DNA of 64,000 nt from an uncultured Bacteroidia bacterium. GTDB taxonomy: Bacteria; Bacteroidota; Bacteroidia; Bacteroidales; UBA932. Below, piece by piece: positions 3,794-63,997 of this stretch. Each line of letters begins with the position of its first letter. Position 1 is the stretch's first letter. The stretch lies in contig CACZUR010000002.1 in NCBI GenBank assembly GCA_902784435.1, positions 1 through 64,000 on the forward strand, given 5' to 3'. The translations under genes were made by a program, and so were the position numbers. The notes under the pieces are model-generated. The model did not search any database, was not told the origin of the DNA, and worked only from the letters and a program-made list of their open reading frames with translations.

Positions 3794-3933
3794 CGTCCGG
3801 GTTTTGGGTCATTTTCCCGGACGGACGCGGCTTTGTAGGCGTTTCGTCCGGGTTTTGAGCCGTTTTCCCGGACGGACGTGGCATTGTAGGCGTTTCGTCC
3901 GGGTTTTGAGCCGTTTTCCCGGACGGACGTGGC
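3794..3933. repeat. three tandem 51-bp hairpin repeats
   Basis: Three copies begin at 3794, 3845 and 3896, an exact 51-bp period. Each contains CGTCCGGG, a 14-base T-rich spacer and CCCGGACG, a perfect 8-bp inverted repeat, followed by GACG(C/T)GGC. Copies 2 and 3 have identical hairpins; copy 1 differs at a few spacer positions. The array lies between the end of the serine hydrolase gene and the promoter of the envelope protein gene, both on the minus strand, so it could affect read-through. It is a different family from the 53-bp repeats near 36 kb. Confidence 0.85.
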
Positions 3934-16581: not shown

Positions 16582-16682
16582 CATGCAACGTATAACGCGA
16601 AAAACGGGGAAAAGTGCGTTATAGGGTGCATGCCGATGCAACGTATAACGCGAAAAACGCCCAAAAGTGCGTTATAGGGTGT
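16582..16682 (+). repeat. two copies of the 53-bp hairpin repeat (REP-like)
   Basis: Two units begin at 16582 and 16635. Each has CGTATAACGC, a 17-base spacer rich in A, and GCGTTATAGGG, so TATAACGC and GCGTTATA form a perfect 8-bp inverted repeat. The same family occurs at 34246, 35950 and 50922. The rest of the 343-bp gap 16475-16817 holds the SGNH and exbB promoters and no gene. Confidence 0.85.
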
Positions 16683-30934: not shown

Positions 30935-31546
30935 ATGCACATAGGAATCGCCGGAAATATCGGAAGCGGAAAAACCACTCTCACCACCCTTTTGGCCCGC
31001 CATTACGGCTGGACGCCCAAGTTTGAATCCGTCACCTACAATCCCTATCTGGCCGACTATTACAAAGACATCAAGCGCTGGTCCTTCGCCCTGGAAATGT
31101 ATTTCCTGCAGCAGCGCCTGCACGACGTACTGGAAATCTCCCAGTCCAAGGATGTCATCATCCAGGACCGCACCCTGCTGGAAGGCGTACACATCTTCGT
31201 GGCCAACAACTATGCGCAGGGAAACCTCTCGGAACGGGACTACAACACCTACATGGACACCTACAATGTCATGATGGAAGTTGTGAAGCAGCCGGACCTC
31301 ATGATTTACCTCCGTTCCGGTATCTCCCACCTGGTATCCCAGATCCAGAAACGCGGCCGGGACTACGAACAAACCATCTCCATCGAATATCTGAGCGGCC
31401 TGAACGAGCGCTACGAAAAGTGGATTGCCTCGTACAAGGGCCGGCTCATTGAAATAGACGCGGACAACCTGGATTTCCTGAACCGCCCGGAAGACTTCGC
31501 CCTTATCACGGACAGGATAGACGCAGAACTGTACGGACTGTTTTAG
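30935..31546 (+). CDS. deoxynucleoside kinase, copy 1
   Basis: The enzyme phosphorylates a deoxynucleoside for nucleotide salvage. The 203-residue protein has Walker A GNIGSGKTT, the ERS-like catalytic segment as QDRTLLEGVHIF, and the DLMIYLRSG and KRGRDYEQ lid motifs of the dAK/dGK/dCK family. Substrate preference cannot be read from sequence. A second copy with the same plan follows 81 bases later, with roughly half of the residues identical by eye (for example HYGWTPKFESV in both). It is divergent from the metallo-hydrolase gene. Confidence 0.92.
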   Translation: MHIGIAGNIGSGKTTLTTLLARHYGWTPKFESVTYNPYLADYYKDIKRWSFALEMYFLQQRLHDVLEISQSKDVIIQDRTLLEGVHIFVANNYAQGNLSERDYNTYMDTYNVMMEVVKQPDLMIYLRSGISHLVSQIQKRGRDYEQTISIEYLSGLNERYEKWIASYKGRLIEIDADNLDFLNRPEDFALITDRIDAELYGLF

Positions 31547-31548
31547 AT

Positions 31549-31610
31549 ACCCGGTCAAGCCGGGTATGACAAAAAACCGGGTATGACAAGAAGCCGGGTA
31601 TGACAAGAAG
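31549..31610 (+). repeat. short palindrome plus three 17-bp direct repeats between the kinase genes
   Basis: ACCCGGTCAAGCCGGGT (31549-31565) is a hairpin with a 5-base loop. It runs into three copies of CCGGGTATGACAAGAAG, starting at 31560, 31577 and 31594, the first with AAAAAA at its end. The first copy shares its CCGGG with the hairpin. The hairpin could weaken read-through to the second kinase gene. Confidence 0.75.
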
Positions 31611-31627
31611 AATAAACATTTTTGATT

Positions 31628-32248
31628 ATGCATATAGCCATCGCAGGTAACATCGGCAGTGGAAAAACCACCCTTACCAAAATGCTCGCCGCCCACTACG
31701 GCTGGACGCCCAAGTTTGAATCTGTGGACTACAACCCCTATCTGGCAGACTTCTACGAGGATATGGAGCGCTGGTCCTTCAACCTGCAAATCTACTTCCT
31801 GAACAAGCGTTTCCAGGACGTGGTGGAAATCTCCAAGCACCAGGAGGTCATTATCCAGGACCGCACCATCTACGAGGACGCCCGCATCTTCGCCCCCAAC
31901 CTCCACGCCATGGGCCTGATGTCCACCCGCGACTTCGAGAACTACTCCGACCTCTTCGACCTCATGATGAGCCTGGTGAACCCGCCGGATCTCCTGATTT
32001 ACCTCAGGAGTTCCATCCCCAACCTCATCGCCCAAATCCAGAAGCGCGGCCGCGAGTACGAGCGTTCCATCCGGATAGACTACATCACCGGCCTCAACCA
32101 GCGCTACGAGGACTGGATCAAGAACTACAAGGCCCGTCTCCTTGTCGTAGACGTGGACAACATCAAATTCGAGAACAAACCGGAAGATTTCCAGTTCATT
32201 ACGGACAAAATAGACGCAGAGCTCTACGGCCTGTTCCCCGCAGAATAA
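31628..32248 (+). CDS. deoxynucleoside kinase, copy 2
   Basis: The 206-residue paralogue keeps Walker A GNIGSGKTT, QDRTIYEDARIF and the DLLIYLRSS and KRGREYERSIRI motifs. It differs from copy 1 mostly in the middle helices that shape the substrate pocket, so the two may prefer different deoxynucleosides or form a mixed dimer, as paired dAK/dGK subunits do in lactobacilli. The ATG at 31628 is preferred to an in-frame TTG two codons earlier. The acyl-CoA synthetase gene starts 19 bases later. Confidence 0.92.
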   Translation: MHIAIAGNIGSGKTTLTKMLAAHYGWTPKFESVDYNPYLADFYEDMERWSFNLQIYFLNKRFQDVVEISKHQEVIIQDRTIYEDARIFAPNLHAMGLMSTRDFENYSDLFDLMMSLVNPPDLLIYLRSSIPNLIAQIQKRGREYERSIRIDYITGLNQRYEDWIKNYKARLLVVDVDNIKFENKPEDFQFITDKIDAELYGLFPAE

Positions 32249-34245: not shown

Positions 34246-34292
34246 TGCAACCTGTAACGCACTTTCGGGCGTTTTTCGCGTTACACGTTGCA
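34246..34292 (-). repeat. single inverted copy of the 53-bp hairpin repeat
   Basis: On the minus strand this reads ATGCAACGTGTAACGCG, spacer, GTGCGTTACAGGTTGCA, the same family as the arrays at 35950 and 50922. TGTAACGC and GCGTTACA form a perfect 8-bp inverted repeat. It lies between the ends of the acyl-CoA synthetase and GNAT genes, about 0.8 kb from the RAYT gene. Confidence 0.85.
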
Positions 34293-34323
34293 TGGGCAGC
34301 ATGTTCAGGCGTACTACCGTAGC

Positions 34324-34815
34324 TTAGCGCAGTCGTTGGTAGGCCAGACGCTCGGCCCCGGAGGCGATATGGATGATTCCGCAGTAACGGAAACCGTATT
34401 TGGCCAGGTTGTGCTGCATGATGCGGTTGTCCCGATGGGTATCGATGCGGATATTGTCCGTGATGCCGTCCAGCCAATTCATCATGGTCCGGAACACGCC
34501 GTGCACCTCCGGAAAACTGGCAATGCGGTGAATGACGTAATAGGGCTTTTCGTCATCCAGCCAGACGCCGCCATCGATGACGGAATAGGTGGGATCCGGG
34601 GAAGGAATACAGGCGAAATAGGCCACCACCCGGCCTTCCTGCTCCATCACTTTGCCATAACCTGGGCCGATATCGGCCCGTATCATCGCCTCTGTCGGAT
34701 ATCCTTCCGGCCACTGGTCCAGATTCCCGGAGTCCAGCATAATCCCCCGCCCTGCCACCATCACTTGCATGATGGCGGGAATGTCTTTTTCCATTGCCGT
34801 GCGGATCTTCAACAT
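34324..34815 (-). CDS. GNAT-family N-acetyltransferase
   Basis: The 163-residue protein has the GNAT plan: an N-terminal IRTAMEKDIPAIMQVM strand-helix, a middle EGRVVAYFACIP strand, and the C-terminal NRIMQHNLAKYGFRYCGI helix-strand, where the NxxxxxxLxKxGF pattern is common in the superfamily. The acetyl-CoA loop is poorly conserved, so the substrate is unknown. The ATG at 34815 is preferred because a TAACTTTG box ends five bases before it. Confidence 0.8.
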   Translation of the reverse strand: MLKIRTAMEKDIPAIMQVMVAGRGIMLDSGNLDQWPEGYPTEAMIRADIGPGYGKVMEQEGRVVAYFACIPSPDPTYSVIDGGVWLDDEKPYYVIHRIASFPEVHGVFRTMMNWLDGITDNIRIDTHRDNRIMQHNLAKYGFRYCGIIHIASGAERLAYQRLR

Positions 34816-34820
34816 GATTG

Positions 34821-34828
34821 CAAAGTTA
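34821..34828 (-). promoter_or_regulatory. -7 promoter box (TAACTTTG) for the GNAT gene
   Basis: The minus strand reads TAACTTTG then CAATC then ATG, so the transcript would be leaderless or nearly so. The remaining gap to 35053 is AT-rich with no gene. Confidence 0.55.
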
Positions 34829-35053
34829 TAAAAAGAATACAATTACGCAGCGCAACACCTGAAAATCCGTTGAAACAGATAAAAAAACCTTTAAAACAAC
34901 ACAAGTTATCAACAGGGTATTGATTATTGTTCTCCAAACAAGTATGTTTGAATCCGGGAGAACTACCTGTCAGACCGGGAAGCCCGCTCCTACCCATCCA
35001 TTTCTGGTGACAATATTTCCCCATTCCAAGGAGGATAATAAACACTATCATAC

Positions 35054-35971
35054 ATGATGAAAAGAGACGAGTACAAACATTTACCCAAAGGGTATTACCA
35101 TTTGGCTACGGACGGAAAATGGGACGGAGCCATATTCCACCATCGGGAACAATATGCCTATGGGATGATTCTGATGGGACTGGTCACGCTATGGTTTCCG
35201 GTCGAAATTTATTCATTTACGCTGATGAACAACCACATCCACATCATCTTCAGCGGGACCGGAGACGCATGTATGGACGTGTTCCATTATCTGGTCCGGA
35301 AACTGAACATTCGGCTGCGAAAAGATGGCTTCCCTGAACTTCCGCCCGACTATGGATGCAAACTGGTGCCCATCGAGAGCCGGGAACAATTGAAAAACAT
35401 TTTTATTTATTTGGACAGAAACCCCTACGAAAAACAGTATTGTGTCCCGGCTGGATATCCCTGGGGAACCACCTTGATTCATCATTCCCGGTTCAAGAAC
35501 CTGTTCACGTGGACAAAAGCGTCTTCCCTGTCCAAACGGGAGCTGGAACGGATTACAGGCACCCGCACCACCATTCCCGCTGACTGGGAGTTTAACCCCG
35601 TTCTGGGACTGAATCCGGATTCTTTCGTGCGCAATGACAAGTTTATGGAATTGTTTCCCACGCCCAAGGCCTATGAATGCCGCCTGGTCAAGGATTATGA
35701 AGCCATCGTAGAAGTGGCCGATGCCCTGGACGAGGAAATCTCTTTTTCTGCCGATGAAGTGGAGGGCGTCATTTCGGCACTCCTCCGGAAACACTTTTCC
35801 GGACGGGAGCTCCGGCAGCTGAACCATGACGAAAAAGGAAGGATGGCCGTATTGTTATCCCAAAACTATCACATTGCGGTTCCGCAAATCGCCCAAGCGC
35901 TGCATTTACAGGAGTATGTGGTGAAACAATTCCTCAACGCTAAGGACTATGGGAAACGTATAACGCGCTAA
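35054..35971 (+). CDS. REP-associated tyrosine transposase (RAYT, Y1/HUH family)
   Basis: RAYTs are single-copy relatives of the IS200/IS605 transposases that cut single-stranded hairpin (REP) sequences. The 305-residue protein has the HUH motif NNHIHIIFSG (His61, His63), preceded by YSFTLMNN as in the family's YxLMPNHxH pattern, and the tyrosine motif FIYLDRNP (Tyr119) followed by GYPWGTT, matching the RAYT YIHxNP...YPWSS region. An extra C-terminal part of about 150 residues ends in a helix-turn-helix-like segment (VPQIAQALHLQEYVVKQFL). The last codons and the stop lie within the first unit of a hairpin-repeat array. Start could be the ATG at 35054 or 35057; an AAGGAGG at 35028 is too far away to decide. 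Confidence 0.88.
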   Translation: MMKRDEYKHLPKGYYHLATDGKWDGAIFHHREQYAYGMILMGLVTLWFPVEIYSFTLMNNHIHIIFSGTGDACMDVFHYLVRKLNIRLRKDGFPELPPDYGCKLVPIESREQLKNIFIYLDRNPYEKQYCVPAGYPWGTTLIHHSRFKNLFTWTKASSLSKRELERITGTRTTIPADWEFNPVLGLNPDSFVRNDKFMELFPTPKAYECRLVKDYEAIVEVADALDEEISFSADEVEGVISALLRKHFSGRELRQLNHDEKGRMAVLLSQNYHIAVPQIAQALHLQEYVVKQFLNAKDYGKRITR

Positions 35972-36214
35972 TCCGGGAAAAGTGCGTTATAGGGTGCAGG
36001 CCGATGCAACGTGTAACGCGAAAAACGCCCAAAAGTGCGTAATAGGGTGCAGGCCGATGCAACGTGTAACGCGAAAAACGCCCAAAAGTGCGTTACAGGG
36101 TGCAGGCCCATGCAACGTGTAACGCGAAAAACGCCCAAAAGTGCGTAATAGGGTGCAACCCCATGCAACGTATAACGCGAAAAACGCCCAAAAGTGCGTT
36201 ACAGGGTGCAACGC
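35950..36214 (+). repeat. array of five 53-bp hairpin repeats next to the RAYT gene
   Basis: Units begin at 35950, 36003, 36056, 36109 and 36162, an exact 53-bp period. The unit is (G/C)ATGCAACGTGTAACGCG, a 17-base spacer, and GTGCGTTACAGGGTGCA. TGTAACGC/GCGTTACA pairs perfectly in unit 3 and TATAACGC/GCGTTATA in unit 1; units 2 and 4 carry GCGTAATA with two mismatches. Unit 1 has a different spacer and contains the RAYT stop codon. The array fills the gap between the RAYT gene and the 3' end of uvrA. Confidence 0.92.
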
Positions 36215-39050: not shown

Positions 39051-39468
39051 CGAAGAATTTACCGAAGCACCGATCCTCTGTATATAATAGATATTCGAAT
39101 CCCCGTCTTTTATATTTCCTCCTATCACCTCATATGTGCCATCGGGCAGCCTTTTCACCCTAGTACTTAACCCATCCTCATCCACCAAATTCACCGGATT
39201 TCCGGCACAGTACACATACGGGCTGATGGCGTAGTATTTCTCTGCCAGCGGATCCATCGTGCTCCAGCGGGGTATGGCAGGGATATAGTTACGGGCGCCG
39301 AAGTCATAGGACAGGGTGGTGCCGTCCCACTCTTTGCCGCCATACTTGTACTCCGACACCGCTGACGTGCTGGAAATGGGTGTAAGCAGCTGGCCGTAAG
39401 GGCCGATGGCTGCTCCGTGCAAGGCTGGCGCCTTAGAACCAACATTGTACACCACGTGAAGATATCTC

Positions 39469-41423: not shown

Positions 41424-44400
41424 TCGACAAACCTATTGCAATTCCATAAATATTCCTTCTCCGAATACGTTCATTATATGGCAGTTTCGTTCCTTGCAAG
41501 AATCCATACATTTGTGCTTCTTGTGACACCAAAGGCTCCGTATTTCCGTTTAATGCGTCAAATACAGCTCTCGCTTCCTCCCAAGTGATGCCATAAGCCG
41601 CCGCATAATACCCTGCAAGGATATTACCCACATCACGCGCTGTTCCAAAAACACTATGACCATTTGAGAGAGCATGGACAGGCATGGCTCTATAAAACTT
41701 TAGTTCGTCTTTAAACTGTCGCGTCCAACGGCCGTTCGTTTTTTTGAAATCATATTTTAAACCTGGCAAACCTTTTATCATGTAATTCACCAGTGGACGC
41801 AGGTTGGTCATCAAATCATGCAAAAATTCCATTCCCGTTTGATTATTCGGATCAATGATTGCACCTATCCTTGGGGTTTTATCATCTCCTGAAACGAAAG
41901 AATAAAGCGAGACACTGTATCCAATGTATTCATCAGTACTCCGCCAATTCCCTTCATCATCCAACTCCGCAACATAAATTTTTCTATCATCGTCTGAAAC
42001 GTCGACTCCTACTACTTCATATGTGCCATCGGGCAGCCTTTTCACCCTAGTACTTAACCCATCCTCATCCACCAAATTCACCGGATTACCGGCACAGTAC
42101 ACATACGGACTCACGGAGTAGTACTTCTCTGCCAGCGGATCCATGGAACTCCAGCGAGGAAGGGCCGGGAGGTAATTTCGCGCACCGAAGTCGTAGGACA
42201 GGGTGGTGCCGTTCCACTCCTTGCCGCCGTACTTGTACTGCGAAACAGCCGTAGTGCTGGAAATGGGCGTCAACAGCTGCCCATAAGGGTCATAGTGGTT
42301 CACCTGCAGCACCGTCCCATTGGCATCCGTCACCATACGGTTATTCCCCTGGTGGTCCTGAACATAGAAACGATAGGCGTAAGTGGCGTTACCTAACGCA
42401 CCCGTAATGTCCACATAGCCGCCATCCACCAGCAAACGGGTGTGAGCAAAACTGTTATCATACACCAAGTTTCCGAAACGATGCCAATGAGCGGTTATTG
42501 TCTGATCGCTTTCGGTCAACACCTCCATCTTTTCGCCGGAAGCGGTGTAGCGGATGTCGGTCTGGCTGCCATCCGACGAGTTGGTGTACCCCGACAACAG
42601 ATTCAGCGCATTATACGTCATACCCGTCAGTCCCGCATCCGGGTCCGACGTCAGGTTGCCGTTGGAATCATAGGTGTAACTCCCCGCACGGCGGTTTCCC
42701 GTATACGTGGCCGTCACTGTGACGGAAGGCGTAGTCAGCGACAGCATATTGCCATGAAGGTCGTAGGTATATGTGCGGTTATAATTGCCATTGTTGTTTT
42801 GCCCGTCACGGTATACCGCACTCTGCAGACGGGAAAGACCGTCATAGCTAAAGTCGTAGGTCCGCAGCACATTGTCGTTCCCGCACTTCCAGTCCATGCT
42901 GCTTATATTCCCACCCCACTGAACGGGATTCTGGGAAGGCGACTGGCTTGCCTGGTAACGGAGCGCTTCTACAAACGTACTCCCATAGGAGGCATTTGAC
43001 GCATTCCATCCAACGGCAATCCGCTCCGTCCAACCACGGACGTTATATGCATAGCTGGACTTCAAAGCATTTACAGTGTTCCGATTGTCCGACACCATAC
43101 GGCCGGCAAAATCGTAAACGTATGCGTGCAGTTGAGATGTTGTCCCGTAGCTGTATTCGCCCGACTGCAGCGCGCCATTCGCACTTATGCCGTGCGTCAC
43201 GGTGAGCAGGCGGTCCCAGGCATCATAAGAATAGGTATACCGCTCCGCAAAGGCATTGAACATACCACTAAAATGCACCGTACGGGATATCAAGGGTTGT
43301 CCCGTATAACTATATCCGGTATTGGTCTTGTCCCAGCCTCCCATAGGATTCCTGCGGCTGTACTGTATCTCCCGACCGTGGTTGTCGTAGTACGTAACGG
43401 CCCAAATATAAGGATTATTGCTTTCATCTCCAAGTACTTTTTCCAGCGTACCTGTCAGGAAACCATTCTCCAAGGTGGTCTGCCGGGCGCCATAGCCCTG
43501 CTGGGGAGCTCCCGTGTCATACCCCGTAGCGCTATTCAGCGCCGTAGTGGAAGGGACTTCCCATTGGCCAAGAAAACTGTAATCCCCATACCACTTGACA
43601 GACAGTATGTCAGGCTGGAGCAAGAGTACACCGGTAGTCGAATAACCATAGTTCAGTTCCATAGGAGACAACGAGGGATACGCCCGTGTCACCTCCACCA
43701 CAGTGTTTTGAAGGGGTTCTGCGAAAGGATTCATAGATTTCGGGCACAGTCCCTCCAGGCAGGAACGTCCCAGTTTATCCGTAAGATGGAACATCCACCT
43801 GTTATTACCCCGTTGATTCCCGTCCTGACTGAAAACCATACGGTCTCCTTTGTCGTAGGCATAGTACATCCAATCTGCGCCAGGGAGTTTCTTCCCTATC
43901 TGGTTGTTGCGGGAATCATAGCGATACAGGTAGGCATACGATGCCACTTCCGGGGTAGATGTAGAAGTGAAGACCGTGCCACTCGCCGCATTCAAATATG
44001 CAGACAGCATGGGCGGCAACACCCCGGCAAGACGTCCGGCGTCGTCATAGCAGTAATACGTGTCGGCCTGTATTGACGTATTTCCGCTTCCCTCCACGAA
44101 ACGGCGTTCCAGAACAGTCTCACCGAACATGTTGGTGAACAGCAGCATCCTTCGGCCATCCTCGTCCACCGTCTCCTCGACGGCGACAGTTCCGGCAGGG
44201 ACATAACCGCCCTTGGTGATAATGGCTTCGGTGTCGCCGCTGTAGACTATCGTGTATTGCCGGACGGCCAGGTCGTCTCCTGCAGACGAATTGTTGAACA
44301 TGCGGGTATATATCACCTTTTTTCCGGCATTATGCCAATCCGCTCCCGGACCGGCCTCGGAACGGACGCGGTCCATCGGCGTTCCGTCATATGTGGTCTG

Positions 44401-50921: not shown

Positions 50922-51268
50922 CACGCAACGTATTACGCGGAAAACGCCCAAAAGTGCGTAACAGGTTGCACGCCGATGCAACGTGTAACGCGAAAAACGC
51001 CCAAAAGTGCGTTATAGGGTGCCGGCCGATGCAACGTGCAACGCGAAAAACGCCCAAAAGTGCGTTACAGGGTGCCGGCCGATGCAACGTGCAACGTGAA
51101 AAACGCCCAAAAGTGCGTTATAGGGTGCCGGCCGATGCAACGTGTAACGCGAAAAACGCCCAAAAGTGCGTTATAGGGTGCCGGCCGATGCAACGTGTTA
51201 CGCGAAAAACGCCCAAAAGTGCGTTACAGGGTGCCGGCCGATGCAACGTGCAACGTGAAAAACGCCAA
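50922..51268 (+). repeat. array of seven 53-bp hairpin repeats (last partial)
   Basis: Units begin at 50922, 50975, 51028, 51081, 51134, 51187 and 51240. They belong to the family found beside the RAYT gene, here with the linker GGGTGCCGGCC(GATGC). Unit 1 has TTACGC/GCGTAA in place of TAACGC/GCGTTA, a compensated change that keeps the stem. The array fills the gap between the candidate RNA and the oxidoreductase promoter. There are no spacers, so it is not a CRISPR array. Confidence 0.92.
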
Positions 51269-62995: not shown

Positions 62996-63997
62996 ATGAG
63001 AACGGAGACCATCACATCGGCCCAGAATCCGAAGATCCGGAATCTGTTTCTGCTGCAGGAGAAATCCAAGGCGCGGCGGGAGCAGGGGCTGTTTGTGGTG
63101 GAAGGCGCCCGGGAGCTGCAGCACTGCCTGGAAGGCGGCTACAAGGTCCGGACGCTCTTCGTCTGCCCGGAGATCACAGGGACATCTGCCCTTGACTCTG
63201 CAGGAATTTATTTTTCGGGACGGTGCCCGAAAAACCAAATTCCTGCGCCGTCCTGCCTTCGTCACCCCGCGCTCGCAGATGTCCCTGCCATGCCGCACGA
63301 AGTTTCCCCTGCCATGCCGAGCGAAGTCTCCCCTGCCATGCCGAGCGAAGTCTCCCCTGCCATGCCGAGCGAAGTCTCCCCTGCGATGCCAAGCGATGCG
63401 AGTGTATCTCCTTCTAGCGACGTGCTCGTTATCGAACTCCCGGAGCAGCTGTACCGGAAGGTGGCGTACCGGGAGAGCACGGAGGGCATCATCGCAGAGG
63501 TGGAATACAAGTGCCTGACACTGGAAGACTTGCGCCTTCCGGAGAACCCGCTCATCGTGGTGCTGGAGAGCGTGGAGAAACCCGGCAACCTGGGGGCGGT
63601 GCTGCGCAGTGCAGACGCGGCCGGGGCCGATGCCGTTTTCATCGGCGACCCGCTCACGGACCTCTACAATCCCAACCTCATCCGGGCTTCCATCGGCGCG
63701 GTGTTTACCGTTCCGGTGGTGGGGGCGCCATCGGCCCGTCTCATTGACTGGCTGAAGGCGCGCTGCATCCGCATCCTGACGGCGCAGCTGCAGGATTCGG
63801 CCCTGTATTACGACGTGGACATGCGCCGGGGCACGGCCCTCGTGATGGGCACCGAAAGCACCGGCCTCACTCCCCAGTGGCGCGCCGCGGCCGATGCCCA
63901 CATCCGCATCCCCATGCTGGGCCGCCTGGACAGCCTCAACGTCTCCGTCTCCGCCGCCATCCTCCTGTTCGAAGCCGTTCGGCAGCGGCAGGGGTAG
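62996..63997 (+). CDS. TrmH/SpoU-family RNA methyltransferase with in-frame insertion
   Basis: The enzyme methylates a ribose 2'-OH of rRNA or tRNA. The 333-residue protein has the N-terminal substrate-binding part (ITSAQNPKIRNLFLLQEKSKARREQGLFVVEG) and the knotted SPOUT domain with motif 1 LESVEKPGNLGAVLRSADA, motif 2 LVMGTESTGL and motif 3 IPMLGRLDSLNVSVSAAILLFE. The family is usually about 250-270 residues. The excess is at residues about 61-136, encoded by a palindromic element and an AMPSEVSP octapeptide repeat, located between two strands of the N-terminal domain. The frame is kept and the catalytic motifs are intact, so the protein is probably functional. The window ends just after the stop. 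Confidence 0.9.
   Translation: MRTETITSAQNPKIRNLFLLQEKSKARREQGLFVVEGARELQHCLEGGYKVRTLFVCPEITGTSALDSAGIYFSGRCPKNQIPAPSCLRHPALADVPAMPHEVSPAMPSEVSPAMPSEVSPAMPSEVSPAMPSDASVSPSSDVLVIELPEQLYRKVAYRESTEGIIAEVEYKCLTLEDLRLPENPLIVVLESVEKPGNLGAVLRSADAAGADAVFIGDPLTDLYNPNLIRASIGAVFTVPVVGAPSARLIDWLKARCIRILTAQLQDSALYYDVDMRRGTALVMGTESTGLTPQWRAAADAHIRIPMLGRLDSLNVSVSAAILLFEAVRQRQG
63177..63287. mobile_element. 111-bp palindromic element inside the RNA methyltransferase gene
   Basis: CAGGGACATCTGC (63177-63189) and GCAGATGTCCCTG (63275-63287) are perfect 13-bp terminal inverted repeats. Within them GCAGGAATTT...TTTTTCGGG (63200-63219) and CCCGAAAAA...AAATTCCTGC (63226-63246) form a second hairpin of 19 pairs with one 2-base mismatch. 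The length is a multiple of three and the frame is open through it. It looks like a miniature palindromic insertion; no transposase is encoded. Confidence 0.7.
63284..63403 (+). repeat. 24-bp tandem repeat encoding AMPSEVSP
   Basis: Units of CCTGCCATGCCGAGCGAAGT plus CTCC start at 63284, 63308, 63332, 63356 and 63380. Units 2-4 are identical, unit 1 has three changes and unit 5 is degenerate. The first unit overlaps the end of the palindromic element by four bases. Each unit is eight codons, so copy-number changes keep the frame. Confidence 0.92.

Follow-up and report, generated by a model that had tools for sequence, protein, structure and literature searches.

A RAYT-like transposase gene and its probable family of private 53-bp hairpin repeats in a Bacteroidales genome

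The window analysed here, a stretch of 64,000 nucleotides from an uncultured member of the Bacteroidales, carries a gene (R1) for a predicted RAYT-like transposase with hairpin repeats of 53-bp period on both sides and at further places (Table 1). An initial annotation, made from the sequence alone, had read an HUH/tyrosine transposase of RAYT type at 35054-35971, which the present analysis bears out, followed directly by five 53-bp hairpins, with the same repeat near 16582, 34246 (inverted) and 50922. Independent repeat finders recovered the repeat at all three of these more distant places. Behind the gene, they placed the repeat at 35978-36210; four of the claimed five units are good, whereas the first is degenerate (nine mismatches) and covers the last R1 codons and the stop, so that the repeats are mostly, and not all, intergenic as had been stated. 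A GNAT-like acetyltransferase ORF, recognized by eye and with no significant Pfam match, lies at 34324-34842 (-), between the inverted upstream hairpin and R1.

Table 1. Position of the R1 gene, its protein domains and the hairpin repeats in the window
Feature	Position	Strand	Basis or remark
R1, RAYT-like HUH/tyrosine transposase	35054..35971	+	ORF, 305 aa; invariant residues; AF2 model; Foldseek
R1 N-terminal HUH domain: H61, H63, Y119, N123	within 35054..35971	+	two alignments
R1 C-terminal helical extension, residues ~195-300, probable helix-turn-helix	within 35054..35971	+	AF2 model
Five R1 hairpin units, period 53 bp	35953..36210	+	first degenerate, overlapping gene end/stop; repeat finders
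Single R1 hairpin unit, inverted, upstream of gene	34246..34297	-	other end of REPtron-like arrangement
Two R1 hairpin units, period 53 bp, intergenic	16583..16682 (approx.)	+	repeat finders
Six R1 hairpin units and truncated seventh, period 53 bp, intergenic	50925..51266	+	repeat finders
R3-family hairpin, three units, period 51 bp, CGTCCGGG/CCGGACG	3794..3925	+	other copies flank R3, contig C25 (L033)

Other repeats and duplications occur elsewhere in the window, in or near ORFs whose likely kinds were judged by eye, namely a 24-bp in-frame tandem repeat (PAMPSEVS) at 63283-63402 inside an ORF resembling SpoU/TrmH-type RNA methyltransferases, two adjacent and similar deoxynucleoside-kinase-like ORFs (30935-31546 and 31622-32248) with a 17-bp tandem repeat between them (31557-31610), and a 300-nt duplication, 83% identical and with an RHS-core-like translation (39087-39386 and 41974-42273). 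No tRNA was found in the window.

The assignment of R1 to the RAYT transposases holds by its predicted fold and, through its relatives, by family models and the tree as well. In two alignments, of 33 and of 40 proteins, every sequence has the residues H61, H63, Y119 and N123, the larger set using 39 of the 43 length-filtered ORFs from 47 orthologue loci. An AlphaFold2 model built on the 40-sequence alignment reached a mean pLDDT of 90.2, and its best Foldseek match in the PDB (E 1.3e-4, target TM 0.62), also the sole one at E ≤ 0.001, is 4er8, a structure of the RAYT of E. coli together with a REP hairpin; the TnpA proteins of IS608 and ISDra2 come next. The R1 sequence itself matched Pfam Y1_Tnp weakly and not significantly (E 0.084), and gave no match to NCBIfam at E 0.1 or to PHROGs at E ≤ 1. 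Among 33 members of the R1 lineage, Y1_Tnp was matched by 16 (best 1.1e-5) and NF047646, the model of REP-associated tyrosine transposases, by 19 (best 6.6e-13), both at E ≤ 0.1; the NF047646 cut-off of 80 bits was not reached, even matches of E 6e-22 falling below it. The genome's own proteins gave five NF047646 matches at E ≤ 1e-5 (best 2.1e-14), and RAYTs recognized by this model at the same threshold are present in 195 of 295 Bacteroidales genomes.

The initial annotation had also pointed to an extra C-terminal part with a helix-turn-helix-like segment. The extension is real in the model, and its last helices could form a helix-turn-helix, which is probable and not proven. Modelled alone, the C-terminal domain reached a pLDDT of 78.7 and had no PDB match at E ≤ 0.001 by Foldseek; the matches comprised short helix-turn-helix domains (2x48, DeoR 7bhy and sigma region 4), the top rows being CoREST chains. 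A profile of the C-terminal part found four of the 295 Bacteroidales genomes (E ≤ 1e-4), namely the genome itself, a second member of its genus and two weak cases elsewhere, a result whose bearing on genus restriction is limited by the set containing just two same-family genomes outside the genus.

Each R1 unit has a stem TGTAACGC/GCGTTACA and a 17-base A-rich loop, as first described, and an additional outer TGCA/TGCA pairing with an internal loop makes the hairpin longer. The folding energy of the unit is -12.7 kcal/mol on the strand with the A-rich loop (z -3.3, with 2 of 200 shuffles equally good), against -7.9 kcal/mol on the opposite, T-rich-loop strand (z -1.25, 27 of 200 shuffles as good). 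Searching the whole assembly (2.23 Mb, 42 contigs, 82.6% complete) with a 29-base core at up to 3 mismatches gave 93 matches, and a reversed control pattern gave none. The genome-wide count of units proposed by the initial annotation, made with a 40-base core (≤11 mismatches) over the window and 21 further stretches chosen for their R1 hairpin matches, came to 102 units; these form 28 arrays, the longest with 11 units and two consisting of a single unit. Within arrays, 73 of 74 steps measure 53 bp and one measures 52 bp. The array ends are sharp, a unit starting at about CC[CG]ATGCAACG and ending at GGGTGC; where units adjoin, conservation is mostly 84-100% at the hairpin edges and 37-92% at linker positions, while outside the first and last unit the commonest base drops to about 30-55% within some 5-10 bases, the left flank being C-rich. 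As had been claimed, the hairpins differ from GTAG-type REPs, since GT[AG]G occurs within 12 nt outside the 40-nt core, on either strand, in only 3 of 102 units, and a GT[AG]G foot is absent from the unit junction consensus. No known RNA family was matched in the window at Rfam gathering scores, and a CRISPR-like array was ruled out, the whole 53-bp unit being repeated with its linker and without variable spacers.

The full stem is not strictly kept within the genome, because two pairs of the 8-bp stem, 3-33 and 5-31, vary (unpaired in 28 and 43 of 102 units, respectively) and covariation in them, sought across all 102 units, was absent. Units are more alike within arrays than between them (identity 0.918 vs. 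0.892, a difference reached in 0 of 2000 permutations), which slippage explains equally well as insertion. By codon-model gene calls, 8 arrays have convergent neighbouring genes, 12 have co-directional and 4 divergent ones, and for 4 a neighbour is missing; 16 of the 26 arrays with a called 5′-side gene lie in sense after it, and 8 of the 28 run 14-47 bases into one end of a called gene. A terminator-like fixed orientation to genes was not found among the 28 arrays. Ten of the 102 units fall entirely within a stop-to-stop frame that looks coding; of these, the four of L121 (+ strand) were checked against the codon score, which is negative until past the array and places them before the likely start. 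Array pairs in opposite orientation, - then + as around R1, enclose about 2-3.4 kb at L121 (G000:C9:102.8-105.1 kb), L114/L115 (C4) and L116 (C5).

R1 is not the only gene of its kind in this genome. The initial annotation had taken the gene as single-copy, which is right for R1 itself (one copy in the assembly), but five diverged paralogues exist, R2-R5 being 19-28% identical to R1 and R6, the fifth, having been recovered through the C-terminal profile. R6, which stood outside both alignments, shows DHHH and YTLKNP by eye; of the others, R1 and R3 have NP in the Y---NP signature and R2, R4 and R5 have NA or NC, and three R1 relatives that were compared likewise have NA and no NP. Other hairpin repeats adjoin R2, R3 and R5, an 84-bp repeat lies alongside R6, and one long inverted repeat was seen by eye alongside R4. 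The genome thus holds six single-copy RAYT genes, at least five of them flanked by hairpin repeats of their own; that there are six, that at least four others have their own hairpins and that the stem differs between orthologues had gone unmentioned in the initial annotation. Genome-wide counts, which cover the families of R1, R2, R3 and R6, gave at ≤3 mismatches 14 copies for R3 (the window array at 3794 included; none in 25 relatives), 63 for R6 (none in 25 relatives) and 4 for R2, all beside R2, with a single 3-mismatch match in one of 25 relatives. Of 27 R1 arrays (two neighbouring groups at L124 being merged for this count), 5 have R6-family units no more than 60 bp away, whereas random placement gave a mean of 0.245 and a maximum of 4 in 2000 trials. 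Direct adjacency was seen at L116, L119, L125 and L126 (G000 C5, C6, C18 and C19), and at C5:37319-37465 R6 units flank an R1 array on both sides. In the tree the paralogues are scattered among genes of other species and R1 has its own orthologue clade (12 rows, support 100), suggesting that the paralogues are old; the tree is a quick one, with long branches for R5, R6 and E. coli, R6 unplaced and a support of 87 at the lineage node.

The association of such genes with flanking repeats extends to the wider lineage. Within a distance of 600 bp, 62 of 81 RAYT loci have repeats that are 22 nt or longer (≤3 mismatches) and the other 19 do not, compared to 5 of 33 stretches 2 kb off, and among the 33 paired loci such repeats occur at 27 near and 5 far stretches; the 81 loci are not fully independent, L092 being the same as L036 and L104 as L038, with near-copies among L067-L069 and L075/L076, and L092 was dropped in the loop-motif count only. 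A strict hairpin test, run together with the stem clustering at default gene limits for L033, L035 and L054, was positive at 37 of 81 RAYT loci and at 0 of 33 far stretches, and its hairpins fall into 24 clusters by stem, with seven loci chained together in one of them. The loop motif AAAANGSCC occurs in 30 of 80 near flanks (53 occurrences) and 1 of 35 far ones (1 occurrence), against 9 of 80 (11) and 2 of 35 (3) for the permuted control AAAANCSGG; the motif was picked after viewing the near flanks, so that these figures are descriptive, and 50 of 80 loci do not have it. G+C content is a little higher in the far controls (0.576 vs. 0.550 near), and composition may account for part of the contrast in these three comparisons, the far stretches being assumed to be more coding. 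Canonical Bacteroidales RAYTs, taken as a control (19 with an ORF found out of 30 loci, 11 being dropped), have flanking repeats at 18 of 19, and thus flanking repeats in themselves do not set the R1 lineage apart.

A search with R1 gave between 1 and 8 matches in each of 21 out of 24 relatives from the same genus and, at E ≤ 0.001, none in 16 genomes from other families. Equal abundance of the repeat in genomes lacking the gene, which the initial annotation had named as an outcome that would tell against its reading, was not found: among 400 genomes of the genus the 29-base core is present in three (93 copies in its own, 20 in G689 and 2 in G522), each of which also belongs to the 81 that carry an R1 relative (E ≤ 1e-30). 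Because relatives are this common, the coincidence in G522, whose relatives are 42% and 40% identical to R1, alone says little. In G689 an orthologue 63% identical to R1 has two units on each side, inverted, with a 53-bp period and the same inner stem. The closest orthologue, in G322 (70% identical), comes with no copy of the R1 core; its hairpin has a period of exactly 53 bp, a loop ACTTTTGTGGGAAAAAC similar to that of R1 and a stem CTACGC/GCGTAG that is changed relative to R1 yet still complementary, and four of its five genomic copies stand in pairs around the orthologue gene. Over 780 pairs of orthologues, an 18/20 flank match is shared by 41 of the 52 pairs with ≥60% protein identity, by 19 of the 56 in the 50-60% range and by 14 of the 672 that are less than 50% identical; the shared flanks stem partly from common descent. 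The neighbours of R1 were sought in 56 orthologue loci, where the GNAT-like ORF was found in 2 (L209, L210) and UvrA in 3 (L066, L210 and L217, the last at only 39% identity), so that only close orthologues share the location. Those orthologue loci that are named, 47 in number, belong to Bacteroidales or Bacteroidia MAGs, many named for ruminant hosts.

These observations support the reading of R1 as a RAYT with REP-like hairpins, and we consider it likely that R1 is a domesticated, single-copy transposase of the single-strand RAYT/TnpA_REP type, with the 53-bp hairpin as its private non-autonomous substrate. The conserved catalytic residues, the single copy, the flanking arrays, the dispersal with common ends, the distribution and the co-divergence are observed directly, and the fold is predicted. 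The hairpin would form where DNA is single-stranded, as on the lagging-strand template, and would be bound there by the HUH domain, a choice of strand and a role for the probable C-terminal helix-turn-helix being further parts of the proposal. Tyr119 would then cut beside the hairpin foot, probably within the 6-base C-rich linker, and the unit would be moved as single-stranded DNA to intergenic C-rich sites or beside existing hairpins, where head-to-tail arrays might grow by repeated insertion or slippage while the R1 gene itself stays unmultiplied. The loop class (an A-run plus G[G/C]CC) apparently recurs throughout the lineage's hairpin families, though not at every locus, and the stem would serve as a private address, apparently changing along with the protein. 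Counted against this reading are two hardly dispersed families, those of R2 and G322, the missing covariation, the poor folding of the opposite strand, the slippage-compatible growth of the arrays and the loci that have no flanking repeats. A bolder version, to which we give rather less than even credence, holds that in this lineage the GTAG guide was replaced by a loop signal common to otherwise unrelated stems, namely the A-run and the G[G/C]CC after it, which the enlarged protein would read, with the stem as a fast-changing private address that allows several non-cross-reacting systems per genome and with one hairpin and its 6-base linker as the mobile unit, giving head-to-tail arrays and not REPIN pairs.

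It could be argued instead that the hairpins are kept or multiplied for a host function, at transcription ends or mRNA 3′ ends or in replication or chromosome structure, with the RAYT binding or repairing them and not moving them, and with spread by recombination or slippage. The mostly intergenic arrays, their frequent sense orientation after a 5′-side gene, the higher identity within arrays and a single-copy R1 that stays partly in the same place (GNAT at L209 and L210, UvrA at L210) would all suit such a function. On the other hand, gene orientation is inconsistent among the arrays, and the repeat is private to few species, with hairpin families that differ between orthologues and adjoin each other, which a shared host function does not predict, and we regard this explanation as unlikely. 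Replication slippage by itself, with the 53-bp arrays as simple tandem repeats and the transposase incidental to them, would account for the strict head-to-tail period and the higher identity within arrays; given the same ends at 28 separate places, the far greater frequency of repeats around RAYTs than in control stretches and the related hairpins on both sides of the 63% and 70% identical orthologues, it is disfavoured and quite improbable. Least credible of all is an ordinary IS200/IS605 insertion sequence with subterminal hairpins, even though R1 shares the HUH/Y1 fold with the TnpA of IS608 and ISDra2. R1 has one copy and only distant paralogues, no second near-identical copy being found in an assembly that is 82.6% complete, so that it is not one of many IS200/IS605 copies, the other adverse outcome foreseen by the initial annotation; moreover, its signature is Y---N and not Y---Q (PMC6006769, Table 1), and the hairpins are dispersed without the gene.

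The preferred reading, a domesticated RAYT with a private hairpin, can be set against the systems already described. The IS200/IS605 TnpA proteins share with R1 the HUH/Y1 fold and the recognition of hairpins, which for R1 is a presumption, but they are autonomous and multi-copy, whereas here one gene stands among many gene-less hairpins; in the classification portion of Quentin 2018, class 2 TnpA_Y1 proteins carry the signature Y---NP and IS200/IS605 TnpA carries Y---Q (PMC6006769). As far as the published accounts drawn upon here describe them, the canonical RAYT-REP and REPIN systems of E. coli rayT and Pseudomonas fluorescens SBW25, the latter with three RAYTs beside three REPIN groups (PMC3116915), resemble the present one in single-copy HUH transposases, each with its own dispersed palindromes, and tandem clusters are known there. 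The R1 units differ from them in having no GTAG foot and a 17-base A-rich loop, and the repeat unit is one hairpin repeated head-to-tail, while a REPIN is an inverted pair. In a study of three TnpA_REP/REP pairs, the GTAG motif and loop bases were found to matter to differing degrees by group, and recognition and co-change of RAYT and hairpin have been investigated in a few proteobacterial pairs (PMC8266576). The genus considered here offers many natural pairs with a well-predicted fold, including orthologues that keep the stem (63% identical) and change it (70%), so that both the code of recognition and the contribution of the C-terminal part become directly testable in vitro.

Bacteroidetes RAYTs with private, atypical hairpins have already been described, as the relevant portions of Quentin 2018 (PMC6006769) relate, and no paper naming the R1 lineage was found in one open-access library. 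Subclass 2.6 of TnpA_REP, which that work's table equates with group 5 of Bertels, is the nearest comparison: its members, like R1, occur in Bacteroidetes, have an NH[LIV]H motif, low copy number and low identity between paralogues, and are flanked by hairpins without GT[AG]G that have further copies elsewhere in the genome, as far as the subclass is characterized there (PMC6006769). They have, however, a median length of 179 aa, WQ and YIH[QN]NP (PMC6006769, Table 1, for the entries used), unlike the 305 aa of R1, its C-terminal extension and its motifs YPWGT and YLDRNP. The tree of RAYTs that the initial annotation had suggested places 19 sampled canonical Bacteroidales RAYTs, which have other hairpins alongside, in a clade separate from the R1 lineage (support 97). 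Subclass 2.1, or TIRYT, has a long protein with a C-terminal HTH-like domain (PMC6006769; Di Nocera 2013, PMC3733652, in the sections bearing on it) and is like R1 in this respect, but it is reported, in those sections of PMC6006769, without nearby REP-like hairpins, whereas flanking hairpin repeats are common in the R1 lineage. By the features tested, the R1 lineage thus fits the RAYT kind but neither subclass 2.6 nor subclass 2.1, and what is new is a lineage with a C-terminal extension and a probable helix-turn-helix, a long A-rich loop, no GTAG foot and several paralogues per genome.
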